The position numbers and the translations under genes are program-made. Positions 1,432 to 41,443 of a stretch of 64,000 bases of DNA are shown here, one piece after another (within the stretch, counting starts at the first letter, position 1; each line of letters starts with the position of its first letter). The notes beneath the pieces are model-generated. The model saw only the letters and a program-made list of their open reading frames with translations. It searched no databases and was not told where the DNA came from. Source of the stretch: Carboxylicivirga sediminis (GTDB lineage Bacteria; Bacteroidota; Bacteroidia; Bacteroidales; Marinilabiliaceae); the NCBI RefSeq assembly GCF_018156225.1, contig NZ_JAGTAR010000030.1:1-64000 (forward strand), in the 5' to 3' direction.

Positions 1432-1469
1432 AAAGCGCCCAATTAATATGATGATCAATTGGGCGCTTT
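1432..1469 (-). terminator. Hairpin terminator downstream of the Spy-like gene
   Basis: Perfect 13-bp inverted repeat, AAAGCGCCCAATT (1432-1444) and AATTGGGCGCTTT (1457-1469), 18 nt after the stop of the ECF operon's last gene. The T run is short. Confidence 0.6.
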
Positions 1470-1487
1470 ATAAGCTGAGTAGTTATG

Positions 1488-2390
1488 CTAATTGAAATTG
1501 AGGTGACGGCCTCTGTTCATATGGTGCCTGTCAAACCATATTCTTTCTTCATCACTCATCTGGCTTCTAATGGCCTGCATTTTAGAGGAACGCAGTTTGG
1601 CAATATCAAGCCTTAATGCAGCTTGCTTGTCAATTAGTTGATCAACTTTCTTAAGATCAACCGATTTACCTGAGGTCATGGTTTTAAGTTGCGCATCGAG
1701 CTCGTTTAGCTGATTAGTAAGTGGTTGCTGTTGTTTTAATAAGTCAATATGAGCTTGTTTGATAGTCTGTTGCATTTCATCACTTAACATTGCTGGGGAA
1801 TTTGCTGAACCATAACCACGTCCATAGCCATTGCCGTTTCCTTTTCCTTGGCCATTGCCTCTTCCATAACCAGGCTGGTTGTTTTTACCTTGCCCTCGTC
1901 CGCCTCTTAAAGCCTGATTATCGCATTGTCCCTTATTAAAGTTCCGACCTTGGTTGGGTCCCATGCCATTTTTGGGACCTCGTTTACCATTAAAGCTATC
2001 AAATGTTACTATCTGGTCATCAGTTAAAAACGATTTGACAGTTTGCTGGTGTCTGATACGTTGTTTTTGGATGGAGGTCTTCACTTTATTCATCTCTGCC
2101 ATAATGTTGTCAAGGGCTTGCTGGTCAATCGGCTCAGTGGTTTCTATAGTGCGTCTTTTCGCCTGTAGCTCACCCAAACGGTTTCTGTCGGCCTGCACAT
2201 CTTTCTGAAACTTCACTCTTTCAGCATTCATTTTGTCTTGTTGCTCATCTGTCAAATCATCTATAATGCAATACTGATTTGGAGCGTTAACCGGACAGTT
2301 TGACTGCCTGAATCCTTTGTTACGTTGCGCTGTTGCATTGCCAATAGTTATGGCTATTAATGCTAAAGCTAAAAAATATCTGTTTTTCAT
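1488..2390 (-). CDS. Secreted duplicated Spy/CpxP-like protein with Gly/Asn-rich linker
   Basis: 300-residue exported protein with a clear signal peptide (residues 1-21, cleavage after NATAQ). Residues 37-135 form a charged helical segment opening with the LTxxQ-type motif LTDEQQDKM and closing with FLTDDQIVTFD. Residues 200-290 repeat the plan (LSDEMQQ ... MSDEERIWFD). The two halves are joined by a low-complexity linker of about 50 residues rich in Gly, Asn, Gln and Arg. LTxxQ proteins (Spy, CpxP, ZraP, CnrX) are periplasmic chaperones or metal sensors. It is the last gene of the ECF sigma operon running from 3956, about 95 bp after the preceding gene. Chaperone or metal-sensing function in envelope stress is inferred. 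Confidence 0.7.
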   Translation of the reverse strand: MKNRYFLALALIAITIGNATAQRNKGFRQSNCPVNAPNQYCIIDDLTDEQQDKMNAERVKFQKDVQADRNRLGELQAKRRTIETTEPIDQQALDNIMAEMNKVKTSIQKQRIRHQQTVKSFLTDDQIVTFDSFNGKRGPKNGMGPNQGRNFNKGQCDNQALRGGRGQGKNNQPGYGRGNGQGKGNGNGYGRGYGSANSPAMLSDEMQQTIKQAHIDLLKQQQPLTNQLNELDAQLKTMTSGKSVDLKKVDQLIDKQAALRLDIAKLRSSKMQAIRSQMSDEERIWFDRHHMNRGRHLNFN

Positions 2391-2484
2391 CGGTTTATTA
2401 TTAAAATGTTCAACAAAAGGGTATAGTTATCACATCTCAGCAAGCGCGCATTTGCTAAGTGTTAGATATTTAAAGTGTTATGAA

Positions 2485-2994
2485 TTAGTGGTTTTTTCTA
2501 CGACCTCTGAAGCGTTTTCGGTGACCGTCTTTCATTATTCTCGAACGCAATAGCTTATCCAGCATCTCACGTTGCTCATCTGTTTCGCATACATTTCTTA
2601 GTTTTCGGAAATGTTGGTAGTTAATCTCTTCAATTTGTTGCTGCCCGAAGGCTAGCTGGTTCATCAAATTACGGATTTTTATCGTGTCAGTATTATTACT
2701 GAATGTTTCATTCATCAATAACTGGCGCAGACTATCTAATTCTATGTGGCTTTTATACATCTGTTTTGAGTGGTCTTGCCAAAGCTGATACATTTCCTCA
2801 AATTGTTCTTCGTTTATGGAAGTGTTCTGCAGGAGCATGCCTCGCATTTGATCGCGGTATTCTTCTTTATTAAAGCGTCGCACATCCTCATTTTGCTCTG
2901 GCTCCTTTTCATACCACCATATACCCAGTAATACGAGGTTGCCCAGTAAAAAGAGGCTCAGTATAATCCAGCAAAGCTTACACGAATATCTCAT
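2485..2994 (-). CDS. Membrane-anchored periplasmic heavy-metal-sensor-like protein
   Basis: 169 residues with one N-terminal membrane segment (about 9-27) followed by an all-helical, Gln/Glu-rich periplasmic region. The arrangement resembles the CnrX/NreX 'periplasmic heavy metal sensor' and Spy-like families: EEQFEEMYQLWQDHSKQM in the middle and TDEQREMLDKLL near the end echo the two LTxxQ-type repeats. The C-terminus is very basic (RKRFRGRRKNH). Only one base separates it from the stop of the preceding anti-sigma-like gene, so the two are surely cotranscribed and probably translationally coupled. In cnrYXH-type systems such a sensor controls the anti-sigma/ECF pair; that role is likely but inferred here. 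Confidence 0.65.
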   Translation of the reverse strand: MRYSCKLCWIILSLFLLGNLVLLGIWWYEKEPEQNEDVRRFNKEEYRDQMRGMLLQNTSINEEQFEEMYQLWQDHSKQMYKSHIELDSLRQLLMNETFSNNTDTIKIRNLMNQLAFGQQQIEEINYQHFRKLRNVCETDEQREMLDKLLRSRIMKDGHRKRFRGRRKNH

Positions 2995-2995
2995 A

Positions 2996-3334
2996 TTACT
3001 TCAGTGTTTGATTGTTAGCAATAAAAGTGTTTTCACTATTATATTCATACCAGTTGGTTGTGGTTTCCAACTGATACACAGTTGCCCAGTCGCTCTCGTT
3101 TGATTCAATGTTTTTAGTGGCAGTTGTTAAAATAAAAAGATTGCTTGTAAATACAATAATTGCAGCCGCTGCAGCAACTTGTAATAGCATTTTAATATAC
3201 TTCGATGCCGGACGTTCCATCTGTACCTTAACCATCACTTTGTCGATAAAACCGTCAGATGGTTCGTAATTGGTAACCAGCATCTGATTCAGCAGCTGGT
3301 CAATTTCGTCTATATGTTTTTTATTCTCTTTCAT
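2996..3334 (-). CDS. Putative anti-sigma factor, single-pass membrane protein
   Basis: 112 residues from the ATG at 3334; a GTG four codons upstream (3346) would give 116. The N-terminal 50 residues are charged and helical (HIDEIDQLLNQML ... GFIDKVMVKVQ), followed by one membrane segment (about residues 52-74, rich in Ala/Ile/Val) and a short periplasmic tail. No zinc-finger HxxxCxxC is visible. Its position directly after the ECF sigma gene (46 bp), its size and its cytoplasm-membrane-periplasm layout fit an anti-sigma factor analogous to CnrY or PrtR. No specific family was recognised from sequence alone. Confidence 0.55.
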   Translation of the reverse strand: MKENKKHIDEIDQLLNQMLVTNYEPSDGFIDKVMVKVQMERPASKYIKMLLQVAAAAAIIVFTSNLFILTTATKNIESNESDWATVYQLETTTNWYEYNSENTFIANNQTLK

Positions 3335-37684: not shown

Positions 37685-38239
37685 ATGCCAGAAATAAACG
37701 CTGATAATTGGGTGGAAGACCATGGCGACTATCTGTATAACTATGCTTTGGTGCGCGTTAGTAGACCGGAAGTGGCAGAAGATTTGGTGCAGGAAACGTT
37801 TTTAGCCGGTATAAGGTCTCTTGCCTCTTTTGAGCATAAGAGCAGTGTACAAACATGGCTGGTAGCCATCTTAAAAAGAAAGATAATTGACTACTATCGC
37901 AAACGTTCGGTAATCAGTGAGGAGTTTTACGTTGAAGAACGATTTGGGCCGAATGGAAACATGCAGGATCATTGGCTTGAAAAGCATGCGCCTGATCGAT
38001 GGCAGGTTAACAGTGATGAATTACTTGAGAATGATGAGTTGAAAAAAATCCTGCAGGCATGCATCAGACATTTGCCCGAAAAATGGGCATCCTGCTTTAT
38101 ACTGCGTGTTATGGAAGAAATGAAAGGTGAGGTGGTTTGTAAAGAATTAAATATTTCGCCGTCTAATATGTGGGTGATGTTGCACCGCGCAAGACTTCAA
38201 TTGCGTGATTGCCTCGAAAAAGGTTGGTTTAATCAGTAA
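37685..38239 (+). CDS. ECF-type sigma factor of the EKCG-peptide locus
   Basis: 184-residue sigma-70 family factor. Region 2: YNYALVRVSRPEVAEDLVQETFLAGIRSL and SVQTWLVAILKRKIIDYYRK. Region 4: IRHLPEKWASCFILRVMEEMKGEVVCKELNISPSNMWVMLHRARLQLRDCL, with a helix-turn-helix. It is followed after 9 bp by a zinc-finger anti-sigma gene, then by the DUF692/DUF2063/DoxX peptide-modification cluster. In Caulobacter an ECF factor (SigF) controls homologous bufferin genes, so a metal- or redox-responsive role here is a reasonable inference. Confidence 0.93.
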   Translation: MPEINADNWVEDHGDYLYNYALVRVSRPEVAEDLVQETFLAGIRSLASFEHKSSVQTWLVAILKRKIIDYYRKRSVISEEFYVEERFGPNGNMQDHWLEKHAPDRWQVNSDELLENDELKKILQACIRHLPEKWASCFILRVMEEMKGEVVCKELNISPSNMWVMLHRARLQLRDCLEKGWFNQ

Positions 38240-38248
38240 GACTATGGT

Positions 38249-38527
38249 ATGGAAACACAAGGAAAAATGATGATTACCTGTAAGGAAGCCACCTTTCTGA
38301 TTTCGAAAGAGCAACAAGATAAGTTAAGGTTGAGTGAACGATTTCAATTGAAGCTGCATTTGCTGATGTGTAAATATTGTCGGCGATTCTCAGCCCAAGT
38401 TAGTTTTATGACCAAGGCCATTGGACGAATGAAAAAACGTATAGAACAGCAAGGGGTAGAAGTTAAGCTAACCGATGAACAAAAACAGCGAATGAATAAG
38501 CGTTTAAACGATCTGAAAAATAATTGA
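38249..38527 (+). CDS. Small soluble zinc-finger anti-sigma factor
   Basis: 92 residues from the ATG at 38249; ATGs at 38267 and 38270 are alternatives. It contains C11 and the HxxxCxxC motif H37-LLM-C41-KY-C44 of zinc-dependent anti-sigma (ZAS) domains. No membrane segment is visible and the C-terminal half is very basic and helical. Being soluble, it could sense cytoplasmic metal or oxidant through the Zn-Cys site and release the sigma factor encoded 9 bp upstream. The assignment rests on motif and position. Confidence 0.75.
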   Translation: METQGKMMITCKEATFLISKEQQDKLRLSERFQLKLHLLMCKYCRRFSAQVSFMTKAIGRMKKRIEQQGVEVKLTDEQKQRMNKRLNDLKNN

Positions 38528-38534
38528 GGCTATT

Positions 38535-38563
38535 TGTAAGGATATAATTGGTAGTGCGTCTAA
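38535..38563 (+). promoter_or_regulatory. ECF-type promoter in front of the EKCG-repeat precursor gene
   Basis: TGTAAG (38535-38540), 16-bp spacer, CGTCTAA (38557-38563), 52 bp before the start codon. This resembles the ECF promoter form -35 TGTAAC/-10 CGTCTA seen in Bacteroidota. It starts 7 bp after the anti-sigma stop, so the peptide operon can be transcribed separately from its regulators. Confidence 0.55.
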
Positions 38564-38614
38564 CTTGACAAATAATAAAAGAAATGTATATCATTTACTA
38601 TTAATTATATCATT

Positions 38615-39058
38615 ATGAAAACGAAGAAAAACAATTCGAATGGTTTGCTCAAAACCGTAATTATTGGTGGAATGATTGCTGGCGCATCAAGCTTAAGTGC
38701 TAATGCCGAAAACTTGTTGAATTACGGTGATTTAGGCTCAGGAGCCGAGCTGAGAACGAACTTACTGGAGCAATACGGTTCACCGGTGCACACAGCTAAT
38801 TTGCCAGATACCTATAAATCGGGTGAAGCTAAATGCGGCGAAGGAAAATGTGGCGAAGGCAAGTGCGGTGAAGAAAAGAAAGCTGAAGGTACCAAAGAAG
38901 CCAAAAAAGCTGAGACCAAAACTACAGAGGCAAAGTGTGGAGAAGGTAAGTGTGGCGAAAAGAAAGGTGAAAAAGCCAAAACAACCACTAAAGAGGCTAA
39001 AAAGTCAGAAACAAAAACAACAGAAGGAAAGTGTGGTGAGGGGAAATGTGGAAGTTAA
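38615..39058 (+). CDS. HvfA/bufferin-like RiPP precursor with seven E[A/G]KCG motifs
   Basis: 147 residues. An N-terminal Sec-type signal (about 12-31, ending SANAEN) is followed by a 40-residue spacer, then a low-complexity region. All seven cysteines (74, 79, 84, 108, 113, 140, 145) lie in E[A/G]KCG pentapeptides arranged 3+2+2 and separated by Lys/Thr/Glu linkers. A 22-residue unit (93-114) recurs at 125-146. EGKCG repeats next to DUF692 and DUF2063 genes define the bufferin/Hvf precursors, whose cysteines are oxidised to copper-binding heterocycles. Export and metal binding here are inferred. Its own ECF promoter precedes it and a hairpin follows. Confidence 0.88.
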   Translation: MKTKKNNSNGLLKTVIIGGMIAGASSLSANAENLLNYGDLGSGAELRTNLLEQYGSPVHTANLPDTYKSGEAKCGEGKCGEGKCGEEKKAEGTKEAKKAETKTTEAKCGEGKCGEKKGEKAKTTTKEAKKSETKTTEGKCGEGKCGS

Positions 39059-39070
39059 TGCGAAAATGAT

Positions 39071-39104
39071 GCTGAGTAGTCTTTAAACAGGAAGCTTACT
39101 CAGC
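39071..39104 (+). promoter_or_regulatory. Intercistronic hairpin between precursor and oxygenase genes
   Basis: GCTGAGTA (39071-39078) and TACTCAGC (39097-39104) form a perfect 8-bp stem with an 18-nt loop, then only a weak T-rich stretch. It could partially terminate transcription or stabilise the upstream mRNA, giving more precursor than enzyme; inference. Confidence 0.45.
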
Positions 39105-39130
39105 TTGGTTATTAATTAGAAAGATTAGCA

Positions 39131-39970
39131 ATGAGATATCAGGTTGGAATGGGTTTTAGACGCGATTTTGCCGATGAATTCATCGATAATGAAGCTTTTA
39201 AGCCAGATTTTATAGAGTTGGCTCCCGAGAACTGGATAGGCATGGGTGGCTACTGGAAGAAAAAACTGGATGCTGTGGCCGGTCGCTATCCTGTAACTTG
39301 TCATGGTTTGTCATTGTCTATTGGTAGTCCGGATGACCTTGATTGGACATTCCTGAAGCAGCTTAAGGAGTTCCTTAAGCGATACAATGTTTCTATCTAC
39401 TCGGAGCACCTTTCATTTGCCAAAGCCGATAATGCCCATTTGTATGATTTATTGCCGATTCCTTTCAGAGACGATGCTATCAAGCACATTGTAAAGCGTA
39501 TTAAGATGGTGCAAGATTACCTGGAGCGTCCGCTCGTGTTGGAGAATGTATCATACTATACTTCTGTGGCTGCACAAATGACCGAACAAGAATTTGTAAG
39601 TAGAGTAGTTGAAGAATCAGGATGTCAGCTGCTGCTGGATGTAAATAATGTGTATGTCAATGCCTTCAATCATGGCTACAACGCAGAGGAGTTCATCTCA
39701 CAATTACCCCTCGATAAGGTGGCTTACATCCATATGGCTGGTCATGACAAGGTGAGTGATGATTTGATTATTGACACACATGGTCAGGCAATTATAGATC
39801 CTGTATATACACTTTTTGAGTATACAGTGAAGCTACTAAATAAGCCTGTGCCGGTATTGTTAGAGCGTGATTTTAACATTCCTGAAACTCAGGAACTAAT
39901 AGGAGAGATGGAGCGGCTAAAGGGTATCGTTAAAAAAATATGGGAGGTTGAGCATGTTATTGAAAGCTGA
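39131..39970 (+). CDS. DUF692 multinuclear non-heme iron oxidative enzyme (MNIO), HvfB/BufB-like
   Basis: 279-residue TIM-barrel enzyme of the MNIO family (MbnB, TglH, BufB, HvfB). Candidate metal ligands appear in the expected order: HGLSLSIGSPDDLD, YSEHLSF, VLENVSYY, LLLDVNNVYVNAFNHG, YIHMAGH, DTHGQAI and LLERDFN. The start MRYQVGMGFRRDF and PDFIELAPENWIGMGGYW match DUF692. Members use two to three irons and O2 to oxidise cysteines in a precursor peptide, for example to 5-thiooxazole in bufferins. It follows the EKCG precursor and overlaps the DUF2063 partner by 17 bp, so its substrate is almost certainly that peptide. Confidence 0.93.
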   Translation: MRYQVGMGFRRDFADEFIDNEAFKPDFIELAPENWIGMGGYWKKKLDAVAGRYPVTCHGLSLSIGSPDDLDWTFLKQLKEFLKRYNVSIYSEHLSFAKADNAHLYDLLPIPFRDDAIKHIVKRIKMVQDYLERPLVLENVSYYTSVAAQMTEQEFVSRVVEESGCQLLLDVNNVYVNAFNHGYNAEEFISQLPLDKVAYIHMAGHDKVSDDLIIDTHGQAIIDPVYTLFEYTVKLLNKPVPVLLERDFNIPETQELIGEMERLKGIVKKIWEVEHVIES

Positions 39971-40700
39971 TACACGGAAAATACAGGAGCAATTTGGTGC
40001 TGTGTGTCGTAAGCAGAATATTGTAAAACTCCAACTCAGTCGCCCGGAGGCTTTAGTGCACTATCAGCGCTTAATTCGGAATATCTTTAATAATACGCTT
40101 ATAACAGCCTTCCCGATTACCAATGAATGGTTAACTGTTGATGATTGGCAGTACCTGGTGAGCGAGTTTATGGCGAAACATGCTGCGCAAACACCTGCGG
40201 TATGGCAGATGCCCCGTGAGTTTGTTGAATTTGTGACTGAAAATATCTATGCTGCAACACTCAATAAACCCGCCCTTAATGATTTATTATGGCTTGAGTG
40301 GTACGAGATTGAGGTACATACTATGCGCGATGTGGAGGAACCTCCTATCATGAAAACTATTTATCAGCTCAATGATTCTCTAATAATGAATCCTTACCAT
40401 CGGATAATCAACCTGACATATCCGGTGCATAAAATGCATGCTGATGAAGCTGCTGCTGAGCCTGGGGATTATTATGTTCTGACTTATAGGGTGATGGATT
40501 CGGGAGATGTGCGATTTATAGAAATATCTCCTGTTCATGTATTTATCTTGCAAAATATCATTGAAGGTCCGCAAAGCCTTCCTGAAATAGTGCCGGGTGT
40601 TCTTTCGCAATTTAATTTTGATAATGAAGAAGCCATTCAAAAATATCTTGCATTTTTTTGCTCGGATTTAGTTGACAAAAAAATATTAATTATAACTTAG
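39954..40700 (+). CDS. DUF2063/HvfC-BufC-type peptide-modification partner
   Basis: 248 residues from the ATG at 39954, with GGGAGG 6 bp upstream inside the end of the oxygenase gene; TTG at 39948 is a weaker start. The N-terminal half fits the DUF2063 helical domain (HYQRLIRNIFNNTLITAFPITNEWL, EFMAKHAAQTP, LLWLEWYEIEV). The C-terminal half fits the HvfC C-terminal domain (LIMNPYHRIINLTYPVHKM, YYVLTYRV...VRFIEISPVHVFIL). These proteins bind the precursor and form an obligate complex with the DUF692 enzyme. The 17-bp overlap suggests coupled synthesis in equal amounts. Confidence 0.88.
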   Translation: MLLKADTRKIQEQFGAVCRKQNIVKLQLSRPEALVHYQRLIRNIFNNTLITAFPITNEWLTVDDWQYLVSEFMAKHAAQTPAVWQMPREFVEFVTENIYAATLNKPALNDLLWLEWYEIEVHTMRDVEEPPIMKTIYQLNDSLIMNPYHRIINLTYPVHKMHADEAAAEPGDYYVLTYRVMDSGDVRFIEISPVHVFILQNIIEGPQSLPEIVPGVLSQFNFDNEEAIQKYLAFFCSDLVDKKILIIT

Positions 40701-40760
40701 GCAGTGAATTAATCGCCAAACTCGCCCCTCCTTTATCGTTTATTAACTAAATCCAATTAA

Positions 40761-41198
40761 ATGAAAGATGTAATTAAATTTATTAACAATGCAGCTGAAC
40801 GAACGGGTGACTGGGCCTTACTGGCTATGCGCCTGACACTTGCTTTTGGTTTGTTTGAGCCGGCTGTTAAAAAGTTTGAAAACATACGAGGTACAGCTGA
40901 GTGGTTTGCTTCGCTGCATTTTCCGCTGCCTACAGTTAGTGTATTGCTGGCAGCAACTGTTGAGTTTGCTGGTTTTTTTCTGTTAATGTTAGGATTATTA
41001 ACGAGATACATTACAATACCTTTAATGTTTGTGATGCTCATGGCTATTCTGATGGTGCATTTGGGTAACGGTTTCTCTTCGGCTGATAATGGCATTGAAA
41101 TTCCGTTTTATTACCTGGTAATGTTATTCCTGATATTTAGTAAAGGGCCTGGGCGCTTTAGTATTGATGAAGCAGTTGTAAACAAAATCTCAAAATAA
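40761..41198 (+). CDS. DoxX family membrane protein, HvfD/BufD-like
   Basis: 145 residues with four membrane helices. It begins ERTGDWALLAMRLTLAFGLFEPAVKKFENI and contains VLLAATVEFAGFFLLMLGLLTRY, the DoxX signature. DoxX proteins regularly close bufferin/Hvf operons (HvfD/BufD), where a role in transport or quinone-linked re-oxidation has been suggested but not settled. Located 60 bp after the DUF2063 gene with no terminator between, it is taken as the last gene of the peptide operon, which ends at the terminator at 41201. Confidence 0.88.
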   Translation: MKDVIKFINNAAERTGDWALLAMRLTLAFGLFEPAVKKFENIRGTAEWFASLHFPLPTVSVLLAATVEFAGFFLLMLGLLTRYITIPLMFVMLMAILMVHLGNGFSSADNGIEIPFYYLVMLFLIFSKGPGRFSIDEAVVNKISK

Positions 41199-41200
41199 AA

Positions 41201-41239
41201 AAAAGAGGGTAGTCATTAATGATTACCCTCTTTTTTTTT
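41201..41239. terminator. Bidirectional terminator of the peptide operon and the tRNA operon
   Basis: AAAGAGGGTA (41202-41211) pairs with TACCCTCTTT (41224-41233) and the stem continues inward through TCAT/ATGA. Long A and T runs flank both sides, serving the DoxX gene on the plus strand and the tRNAs on the minus strand. Confidence 0.92.
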
Positions 41240-41240
41240 G

Positions 41241-41312
41241 AGCCAATGACGAGAATTGAACTCGTGACCTCTTCCTTACCAAGGAAGCGCTCTACCCCTG
41301 AGCTACATCGGC
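41241..41312 (-). tRNA. tRNA-Thr (GGT)
   Basis: 72-nt cloverleaf without encoded CCA. The acceptor stem GCCGATG/CATTGGC has one G-T pair, the D-arm reads TAGCTCAGGGGTAGAGC, and the anticodon loop TTGGTAA gives GGT (plus-strand 41278-41280). The T-arm contains GAGTTCAATTCTC. Located 58 nt after tRNA-Gly in the same transcript. Confidence 0.95.
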
Positions 41313-41370
41313 AAACTAAAATTGAATCGACCGCAGAATCACATCCAATTTTAATTACTATTAAACCCTG

Positions 41371-41443
<73 letters not shown>

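Follow-up and report, generated by a model that had tools for sequence, protein, structure and literature searches.

Pairs of an extracytoplasmic function (ECF) sigma factor and a zinc anti-sigma factor (ZAS) are described as controlling Hvf peptide genes and methionine sulfoxide reductase (Msr) genes in Neisseria (PMC2893595) and Haemophilus (PMC7907618), and the products of Hvf systems are reported to bear copper-binding 5-thiooxazole (PMC13097082, PMC13419390). Here we present a six-gene operon of this kind from Carboxylicivirga sediminis (Bacteroidota), located in the first 64,000 nucleotides (nt) of contig NZ_JAGTAR010000030.1 (assembly GCF_018156225.1, forward strand), a stretch hereafter called the window.

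The operon is probably a captophorin (Hvf/oxazolin) operon within a small envelope-oxidation regulon. We also hold it to be somewhat more probable than its opposite that the sigma gene is dual-coding: the DNA encoding the promoter-reading helix-turn-helix would itself be that promoter, retained across Bacteroidota (genomes of Marinilabiliaceae, of Chitinophaga and of the Ignavibacteria type) for expression of the anti-sigma gene, which would give negative feedback without self-activation and leave promoter and reader unable to change independently. Both readings rest on sequence: on the identity and conservation of the six genes, on a recurring promoter word with the genes that follow it, and on a DNA-level constraint inside the sigma gene. 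An earlier note on this DNA had named the system as a candidate for a little-described one. Neisseria (PMC2893595) and Haemophilus (PMC7907618) already provide the link between sigma/ZAS pairs and Hvf genes; new are a predicted promoter at 38536 and a promoter-like copy inside the sigma gene, both overlooked by that note, and the predicted regulon in operon-bearing Bacteroidota. A literature search with partial journal coverage returned no case of an ECF sigma gene with an internal promoter for the anti-sigma gene, and no description of such a Bacteroidota regulon.

The operon and its distribution in Bacteroidota

37685..38239, plus strand: ECF sigma factor, 184 amino acids, resembling Neisseria sigma-E and Haemophilus RpoE2
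38139..38166, plus strand: predicted promoter-like copy GTAAAG-N15-CGTCTAA, within the sigma gene, over the region-4 helix-turn-helix codons
38249..38527, plus strand: soluble zinc anti-sigma factor, 92 amino acids, with Cys + HxxxCxxC
38536..38563, plus strand: predicted sigma-dependent promoter GTAAGG-N15-CGTCTAA, upstream of the precursor gene
38615..39058, plus strand: HvfA-type precursor, 147 amino acids, with seven E[A/G]KCG motifs and a Sec-type N-terminus judged by eye
39131..39970, plus strand: HvfB-type MNIO (DUF692) maturase; PF05114 335.7 bits, NF003818 HvfB 386.4 bits (cut-off 360)
39954..40700, plus strand: HvfC-type DUF2063/PME1 partner; PF09836 53.2 bits, NGO1945_C PF22106 45.6 bits (both above cut-off)
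40761..41198, plus strand: HvfX-type DoxX membrane protein; PF07681 53.9 bits, NF050144 HvfX 110 bits (cut-off 80)
41199..41242, plus strand: intrinsic-terminator-like hairpin 3' of the operon, -21.8 kcal/mol, z -6.7, its stem entering a T run

The six plus-strand open reading frames (37685-41198) stand in the order sigma, anti-sigma, precursor, hvfB, hvfC, hvfX read by the earlier note, and Pfam and NCBIfam confirm their families. The sigma factor matches Sigma70_r2 (58.9 bits) and Sigma70_r4_2 (42.6 bits) and is 34.7% identical to the N. gonorrhoeae sigma factor adjoining the Hvf genes of that species. The anti-sigma factor scores 64.6 bits against antisigmaE NF052368 (cut-off 50) and 15.1 bits, under the cut-off of 22.2, against Pfam zf-HC2; the pairing of an ECF sigma with a soluble ZAS, of the redox type, stands. 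A strongly hydrophobic stretch is present in one of 57 anti-sigmas. The precursor contains exactly seven cysteines, each within one of the seven EAKCG or EGKCG motifs counted earlier, and reaches 37.1 bits against NF050137 KCGExKCG (cut-off 19.5). The hvfB and hvfC genes overlap by 17 nt, and HvfC matches structure 3DEE weakly (E 0.003).

By profile scores the locus thus combines the parts of a captophorin cluster, an EGKCG precursor, an HvfB-kind MNIO, a DUF2063 partner and a DoxX protein, and on these scores the gene set is of the EGKCG/oxazolin (HvfABCX, captophorin) branch and not a Buf1 or Buf2 bufferin. Of the earlier label, a bufferin/HvfABCD set in a Bacteroidota, the Hvf/EGKCG part and the phylum hold, with Carboxylicivirga and Saccharicrinis as congeners. 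Bufferin in the narrow sense does not: family scans of the operon proteins gave no match to a DUF2282 precursor or an NrsF anti-sigma, the anti-sigma factor being of the antisigmaE/ZAS kind, and a filing under Buf1 was rejected. HvfB matches structure 3BWW (E 2e-69), and the alignment covers DVNN and DTHG, where the HvfB residues reported as essential lie (PMC13419390). Compared by eye, its Arg10-Arg11 and Asp247-Phe248 match the Arg-Arg and Asp-Phe of Lys-Cys MNIOs, described as substrate-recognition and base residues (PMC13097082). From the aligned regions and these correspondences, 5-thiooxazoles would be expected on the KCG cysteines of the window precursor.

In a phylum sample of 395 genomes (MNIO matches counted at E up to 1e-20) a match was found in 19, eight of them (own genome included) with at least 52% identity, and HvfB was matched in nine of 60 relatives, again with the own genome included; the operon is therefore scattered. 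Locus counts are based on the best 80 of 586 confirmed loci from a profile scan of named genomes, all Bacteroidota in the wide sense, including Ignavibacteria. With 15 loci fetched earlier and 10 duplicates removed these make 85 relatives, or 86 loci with the window; from a set of 11 more remote MNIO matches (36-43% identity), five loci (L045-L049) were retrieved, and these do not enter any locus count.

A sigma gene lies upstream of HvfB in 59 of the 86 loci. Sigma, anti-sigma and precursor occur there jointly in 57 distinct loci, which answers the check on gene-order conservation proposed in the earlier note: the set is conserved together. The complete six-gene order is present in the window and 36 relatives (33, plus three with an additional sigma gene), and 20 further loci have sigma, anti-sigma, hvfA, hvfB and hvfC, with hvfX not scored; contigs ending early were scored as misses. 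Since it recurs across the phylum, the six-gene order is not due to chance. Every one of the 57 anti-sigmas, those of 56 relatives and that of the window, has a cysteine upstream of HxxxCxxC, and a loose pattern finds three or more KC motifs in 80 of 82 precursors. In a tree of 28 hand-chosen HvfB rows the Bacteroidota Hvf rows except L044 group together; the support is only 86/74, and a single origin of Bacteroidota HvfB is not established by it.

The anti-sigma family extends beyond the operon, with matches in 20 of the 60 relatives (13 above cut-off), including congeners without an HvfB match. In one congener (L256, G400, 1459-3046) sigma, anti-sigma and hvfX are kept beside the NhaC-type antiporter of the window; hvfABC was not found at this place, and the peptide may have been lost there while the regulator and DoxX were retained. 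Related but distinct ECF/ZAS pairs, without the promoter motif, precede thioredoxin-like, LysE-like and peroxiredoxin-like frames (L258) or rhodanese-like and other frames (L262), all named by eye. Directly after the terminator-like hairpin, which is not among the candidates of a simple terminator scan, genes for tRNA-Thr(GGT) and tRNA-Gly(GCC) lie convergently on the minus strand (41240-41443).

The promoter word before hvfA and inside the sigma gene

The Neisseria sigma-E consensus is given as GTMAGBWTT, 12-13 nt, CGTCTAAH (PMC2893595). The window carries GTAAGGATA-12 nt-CGTCTAAC at 38536-38564, about 50 nt before hvfA and with the spacing of the gonococcal site upstream of hvfX; it departs from the published -35 block in the final base. 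At fixed spacing the own genome contains two matches, both in front of genes, versus none for a reversed-pattern control, and the only other copy is followed after about 35 nt by the gene of a secreted AhpC/TSA peroxiredoxin; with variable spacing there are two matches versus eight for the control. The strict form precedes hvfA in 19 of the 59 sigma-bearing loci (window included). Upstream of the sigma gene itself it occurs in none of the 59, counted over 300 bp from the start of the longest reading frame. Sigma-70 sites (38565 and elsewhere) were set aside, seven being found versus 11.7 expected by chance; the sigma-70 type is not the promoter type of Bacteroidota.

A further copy is located inside the sigma coding region, in sense orientation, ending 67-77 nt before the sigma stop and spanning the codons of C-K-E...S-N in the region 4 helix-turn-helix. 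Its strict form, GTAAGG-N15-CGTC[T/A]A, is found in 40 of the 59 sigma genes, 9 of the 12 that suggested the motif and 31 of the 47 examined afterwards. In the Chitinophaga loci L085 and L097 this internal word and the site before hvfA are both intact. When the 59 genes were recoded synonymously 300 times the motif was retained in 0.63 on average and in three at most. With one gene per 60%-identity cluster it is present in 10 of 23 versus 0.18 recoded, and with one per 50%-identity cluster in 6 of 15 versus 0.16. The three strongest of 695 third-base tests over the sigma alignment all fall within the motif: at codon 159 the third base is G in 54 of 59 genes (12.3 expected), although the codon encodes S in 28, P in 16, A in 8 and T in 4; codon 153 ends in G in 56 (17.7 expected), with AAG in 54 of 56 lysines; and codon 152 ends in T in 55 (30.2 expected). 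Eleven tests exceed z 4, four of them in the motif with codon 160 as the fourth. We infer that the internal word would be a sigma-dependent promoter whose kept job is making the anti-sigma factor.

Two other accounts of the internal word were weighed against this promoter reading. As a mere by-product of protein constraint on the helix-turn-helix it would be no promoter at all, which suits its overlap with the well conserved C-K-E and S-N residues and the bias of other codon columns in the sigma gene. Yet codon 159 keeps its final G across four different residues, lysine 153 is written almost always as AAG, and the motif is lost on recoding; in addition, GTAARG-N15-CGTCTA is absent from each of the 30 own-genome ECF loci that were available out of 56 Sigma70_r4_2 places, a looser match occurring in two. 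The codon and recoding tests led us to reject protein constraint as the cause, and we regard this account as very improbable. The site might instead reduce the expression of sigma, either as a roadblock or as a sink for sigma. Its sense orientation within the sigma transcript would allow this, and many intragenic PhoB sites of E. coli are transcriptionally inert (PMC10294691), but a position this near the end of sigma and directly before the anti-sigma gene is ordinary for a promoter, and the motif is retained at sigma/anti-sigma pairs for which no HvfB was found alongside; a roadblock is quite unlikely.

The loci that retain the motif where HvfB was not found are four (L255, L256, L257 and L260), and L254 does not have it; in L255 and L256 an NhaC-type antiporter adjoins sigma as in the window (by eye). 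In L260 (G418, 1915-2458) the sigma gene is split across two reading frames, by decay or assembly error, and the anti-sigma is below cut-off; elsewhere in that genome the promoter word precedes msrA (L231). Four related sigma/ZAS pairs at other places do not contain the internal motif. A Pseudomonadota origin of the internal copy was rejected, as the motif is absent from five sigma loci in plasmid-collection records (Acinetobacter, Moraxella, Neisseria, B. glumae and Ciceribacter), although five is few.

Predicted regulon, proposed mechanism and alternatives

The fixed pattern was searched in 12 operon-bearing genomes (of 16 available ones sharing at least 52% identity), giving 23 sites versus 2 for the control, and in 34 additional genomes (of 47 behind named loci with sigma upstream). 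Of the 74 sites in these 46 genomes, 41 are located at the Hvf operon itself and 33 elsewhere. The latter precede genes for MsrA (6, one a short reading frame in L198), MsrB (7), AhpC/TSA or thioredoxin-fold proteins (7), cyclopropane-fatty-acid (CFA) synthase (CMAS, 6), another ECF sigma factor (2), DUF4395 (2), a histidine kinase (1) and LpxR (1), and one lies inside a gene. Hence 26 of the 33 stand before MsrA, MsrB, peroxiredoxin/thioredoxin-fold or CFA synthase genes, and 13 before msrA or msrB. Distances to the start codon are 4-130 nt; 21 proteins were checked by Pfam and 11 assigned by evident likeness to a checked one.

In a comparison scan of the 60 relatives, with the reversed pattern as control, the nine with HvfB had 15 sites versus 1, and the 51 without HvfB had 8 versus 29, so that chance yields the reversed pattern more often than the pattern itself and the excess is restricted to operon-bearing genomes. 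Among the eight sites, two are internal sites of sigma genes. One lies before MsrA in a genome that also has sigma and anti-sigma, and another before the gene of a heme-binding-like lipoprotein; three are intragenic, and the last is without a clear neighbour. The promoter word is predicted to mark an envelope-oxidation regulon. The metal-stress induction suggested in the earlier note is modified accordingly: thiol or envelope oxidation is the better inference than metal alone because the predicted regulon comprises MsrA, MsrB, peroxiredoxins and CFA synthase; copper may also induce.

Some neighbours of the word were recorded in their own right. The CMAS-type genes (L188, L191, L193, L195, L213 and L222, two Pfam-checked) are reminiscent of the Rhodobacter sigma-E/ChrR regulon. 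DUF4395 membrane-protein genes stand behind the word in L200 and L225, and in L192 and L220 it precedes a second, different ECF sigma gene, where a sigma cascade is possible. In genome G399 (L264/L233), which has sigma and anti-sigma and no HvfB match, the word lies before a small lipoprotein with CxxCH followed by two secreted proteins (L264, 293-2237).

In the proposed mechanism a thiol oxidant (hypochlorous acid, peroxide or copper-driven oxidation) would oxidise the cysteine/zinc site of the cytoplasmic anti-sigma factor and free sigma, which would start transcription at GTAAGG-N15-CGTCTA. From the internal promoter of most sigma-bearing relatives the anti-sigma gene and the operon behind it would be expressed with no extra sigma, closing a negative feedback loop; other predicted sites lie often before hvfA, and also before msrA, msrB, peroxiredoxin and cfa genes. 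HvfB and HvfC would turn the seven KCG cysteines into 5-thiooxazoles in the cytoplasm, the modified peptide would be exported by Sec and bind copper in the periplasm, and the membrane protein HvfX may assist the peptide system.

A response to metal alone (copper, gold), with the ZAS sensing displacement of its zinc and the regulon serving as a copper-homeostasis unit, is unlikely. It would agree with the copper binding of 5-thiooxazole peptides and with the frequent induction of such clusters by excess copper, gold and oxidative stress (PMC13097082), but the genes directly behind the 33 off-operon sites serve mostly in oxidative repair, none of these first genes was identified as a copper exporter, oxidase or chaperone, and hypochlorous acid and hydrogen peroxide raise rpoE2 expression in Haemophilus (PMC7907618). 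That the peptide takes up copper like methanobactin, and does not protect, is hardly credible: HvfB and MbnB are both of the MNIO family, but the MbnB model TIGR04159 gives 57.1 bits versus a cut-off of 325, on which a filing under methanobactin was rejected, and the Sec-type precursor with EGKCG repeats and the DUF2063 partner speak for another class.

Several results weigh against the oxidation regulon and the dual-coding sigma gene as we read them. Meningococcal sigma-E expression is reported as not altered by oxidative stimuli (PMC2893595). Equivalog cut-offs are missed by sigma (TIGR02943, 148.4 of 162.2 bits), the precursor (HvfA NF050188, 38.3 of 95) and HvfC (NF050145, 116.9 of 142). 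The scan of the 34 additional genomes gave 51 sites versus 25 for the control, 16 of these 25 in seven large Chitinophaga genomes, and 10 of the 34 had no site, so lone sites in larger genomes may be chance. In the own genome of the window the fixed-pattern scan found no strict site before any Msr gene. Only one of 27 loci without sigma has the strict form upstream of hvfA, 14 of the 59 with sigma have neither strict motif, and seven third-base tests beyond the motif also reach z 4.1 to 6.2. In the window the internal copy at 38139 reads GTAAAG, one mismatch, as it does in the closest relative (L030); it may be weak, so that most of the expression here probably depends on the site before hvfA.

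If the regulon is as predicted, a large class of copper-binding modified peptides would be tied to a defined, predictable oxidative-damage regulon beyond the Pseudomonadota, and the promoter word could be used for searching other genomes. The internal word, if true, would be a clean case of regulatory DNA hidden in coding DNA, in which a protein acts on its own DNA-reading codons.

Relation to described systems

Among bufferin-type systems, sigma and NrsF genes are reported for Buf1 and not for Buf2, and the available text of PMC12452194 names none for EGKCG clusters. The Buf1 operon of Caulobacter with sigma-F/NrsF is, like the window operon, an ECF-controlled MNIO peptide operon; it differs in its DUF2282 precursor and NrsF anti-sigma (PMC3511200, PMC12452194). 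The Buf_EGKCG/oxazolin clusters and captophorins have the precursor motif, MNIO, PME1 partner and DoxX protein in common with the window and are described as mostly from Pseudomonadota (PMC12452194, PMC13097082), although the taxonomy in PMC12452194 may include Bacteroidota members.

In Haemophilus the ECF/ZAS pair RpoE2/HrsE controls a DoxX-Hvf cluster and msrAB, with an MNIO and DUF2063 partner as in the window; the label used for the ECF group in PMC7907618 is group 13. This is a gammaproteobacterium, and the regulated cluster is named in the available text as four genes, with no mention there of sigma or of an internal promoter (PMC7907618, PMC13419390). The predicted regulon resembles those of Neisseria sigma-E and Haemophilus RpoE2 in joining msrAB to Hvf genes (PMC2893595, PMC7907618), with CFA synthase and peroxiredoxins added.

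The Neisseria sigma-E operon (NMB2140-2145, NGO1948-1943) has all six gene kinds of the window, a soluble ZAS with an extra N-terminal cysteine, a promoter GTMAG..-CGTCTAA at equal spacing and msrAB in the regulon (PMC2893595). Its order is hvfX, hvfA, hvfB, hvfC, sigma, anti-sigma with the promoter before hvfX, whereas sigma and anti-sigma come first in Bacteroidota. Acinetobacter and Moraxella records show hvfA, hvfB, hvfC, sigma and anti-sigma with hvfX divergent, and in Moraxella an insertion sequence lies between hvfB and hvfC. In Neisseria the activated transcript contains sigma (PMC2893595); the Bacteroidota sigma gene, in contrast, lies ahead of both promoter positions. The comparison suggests two wirings of one module, with sigma inside the activated transcript in Neisseria and ahead of it in Bacteroidota.

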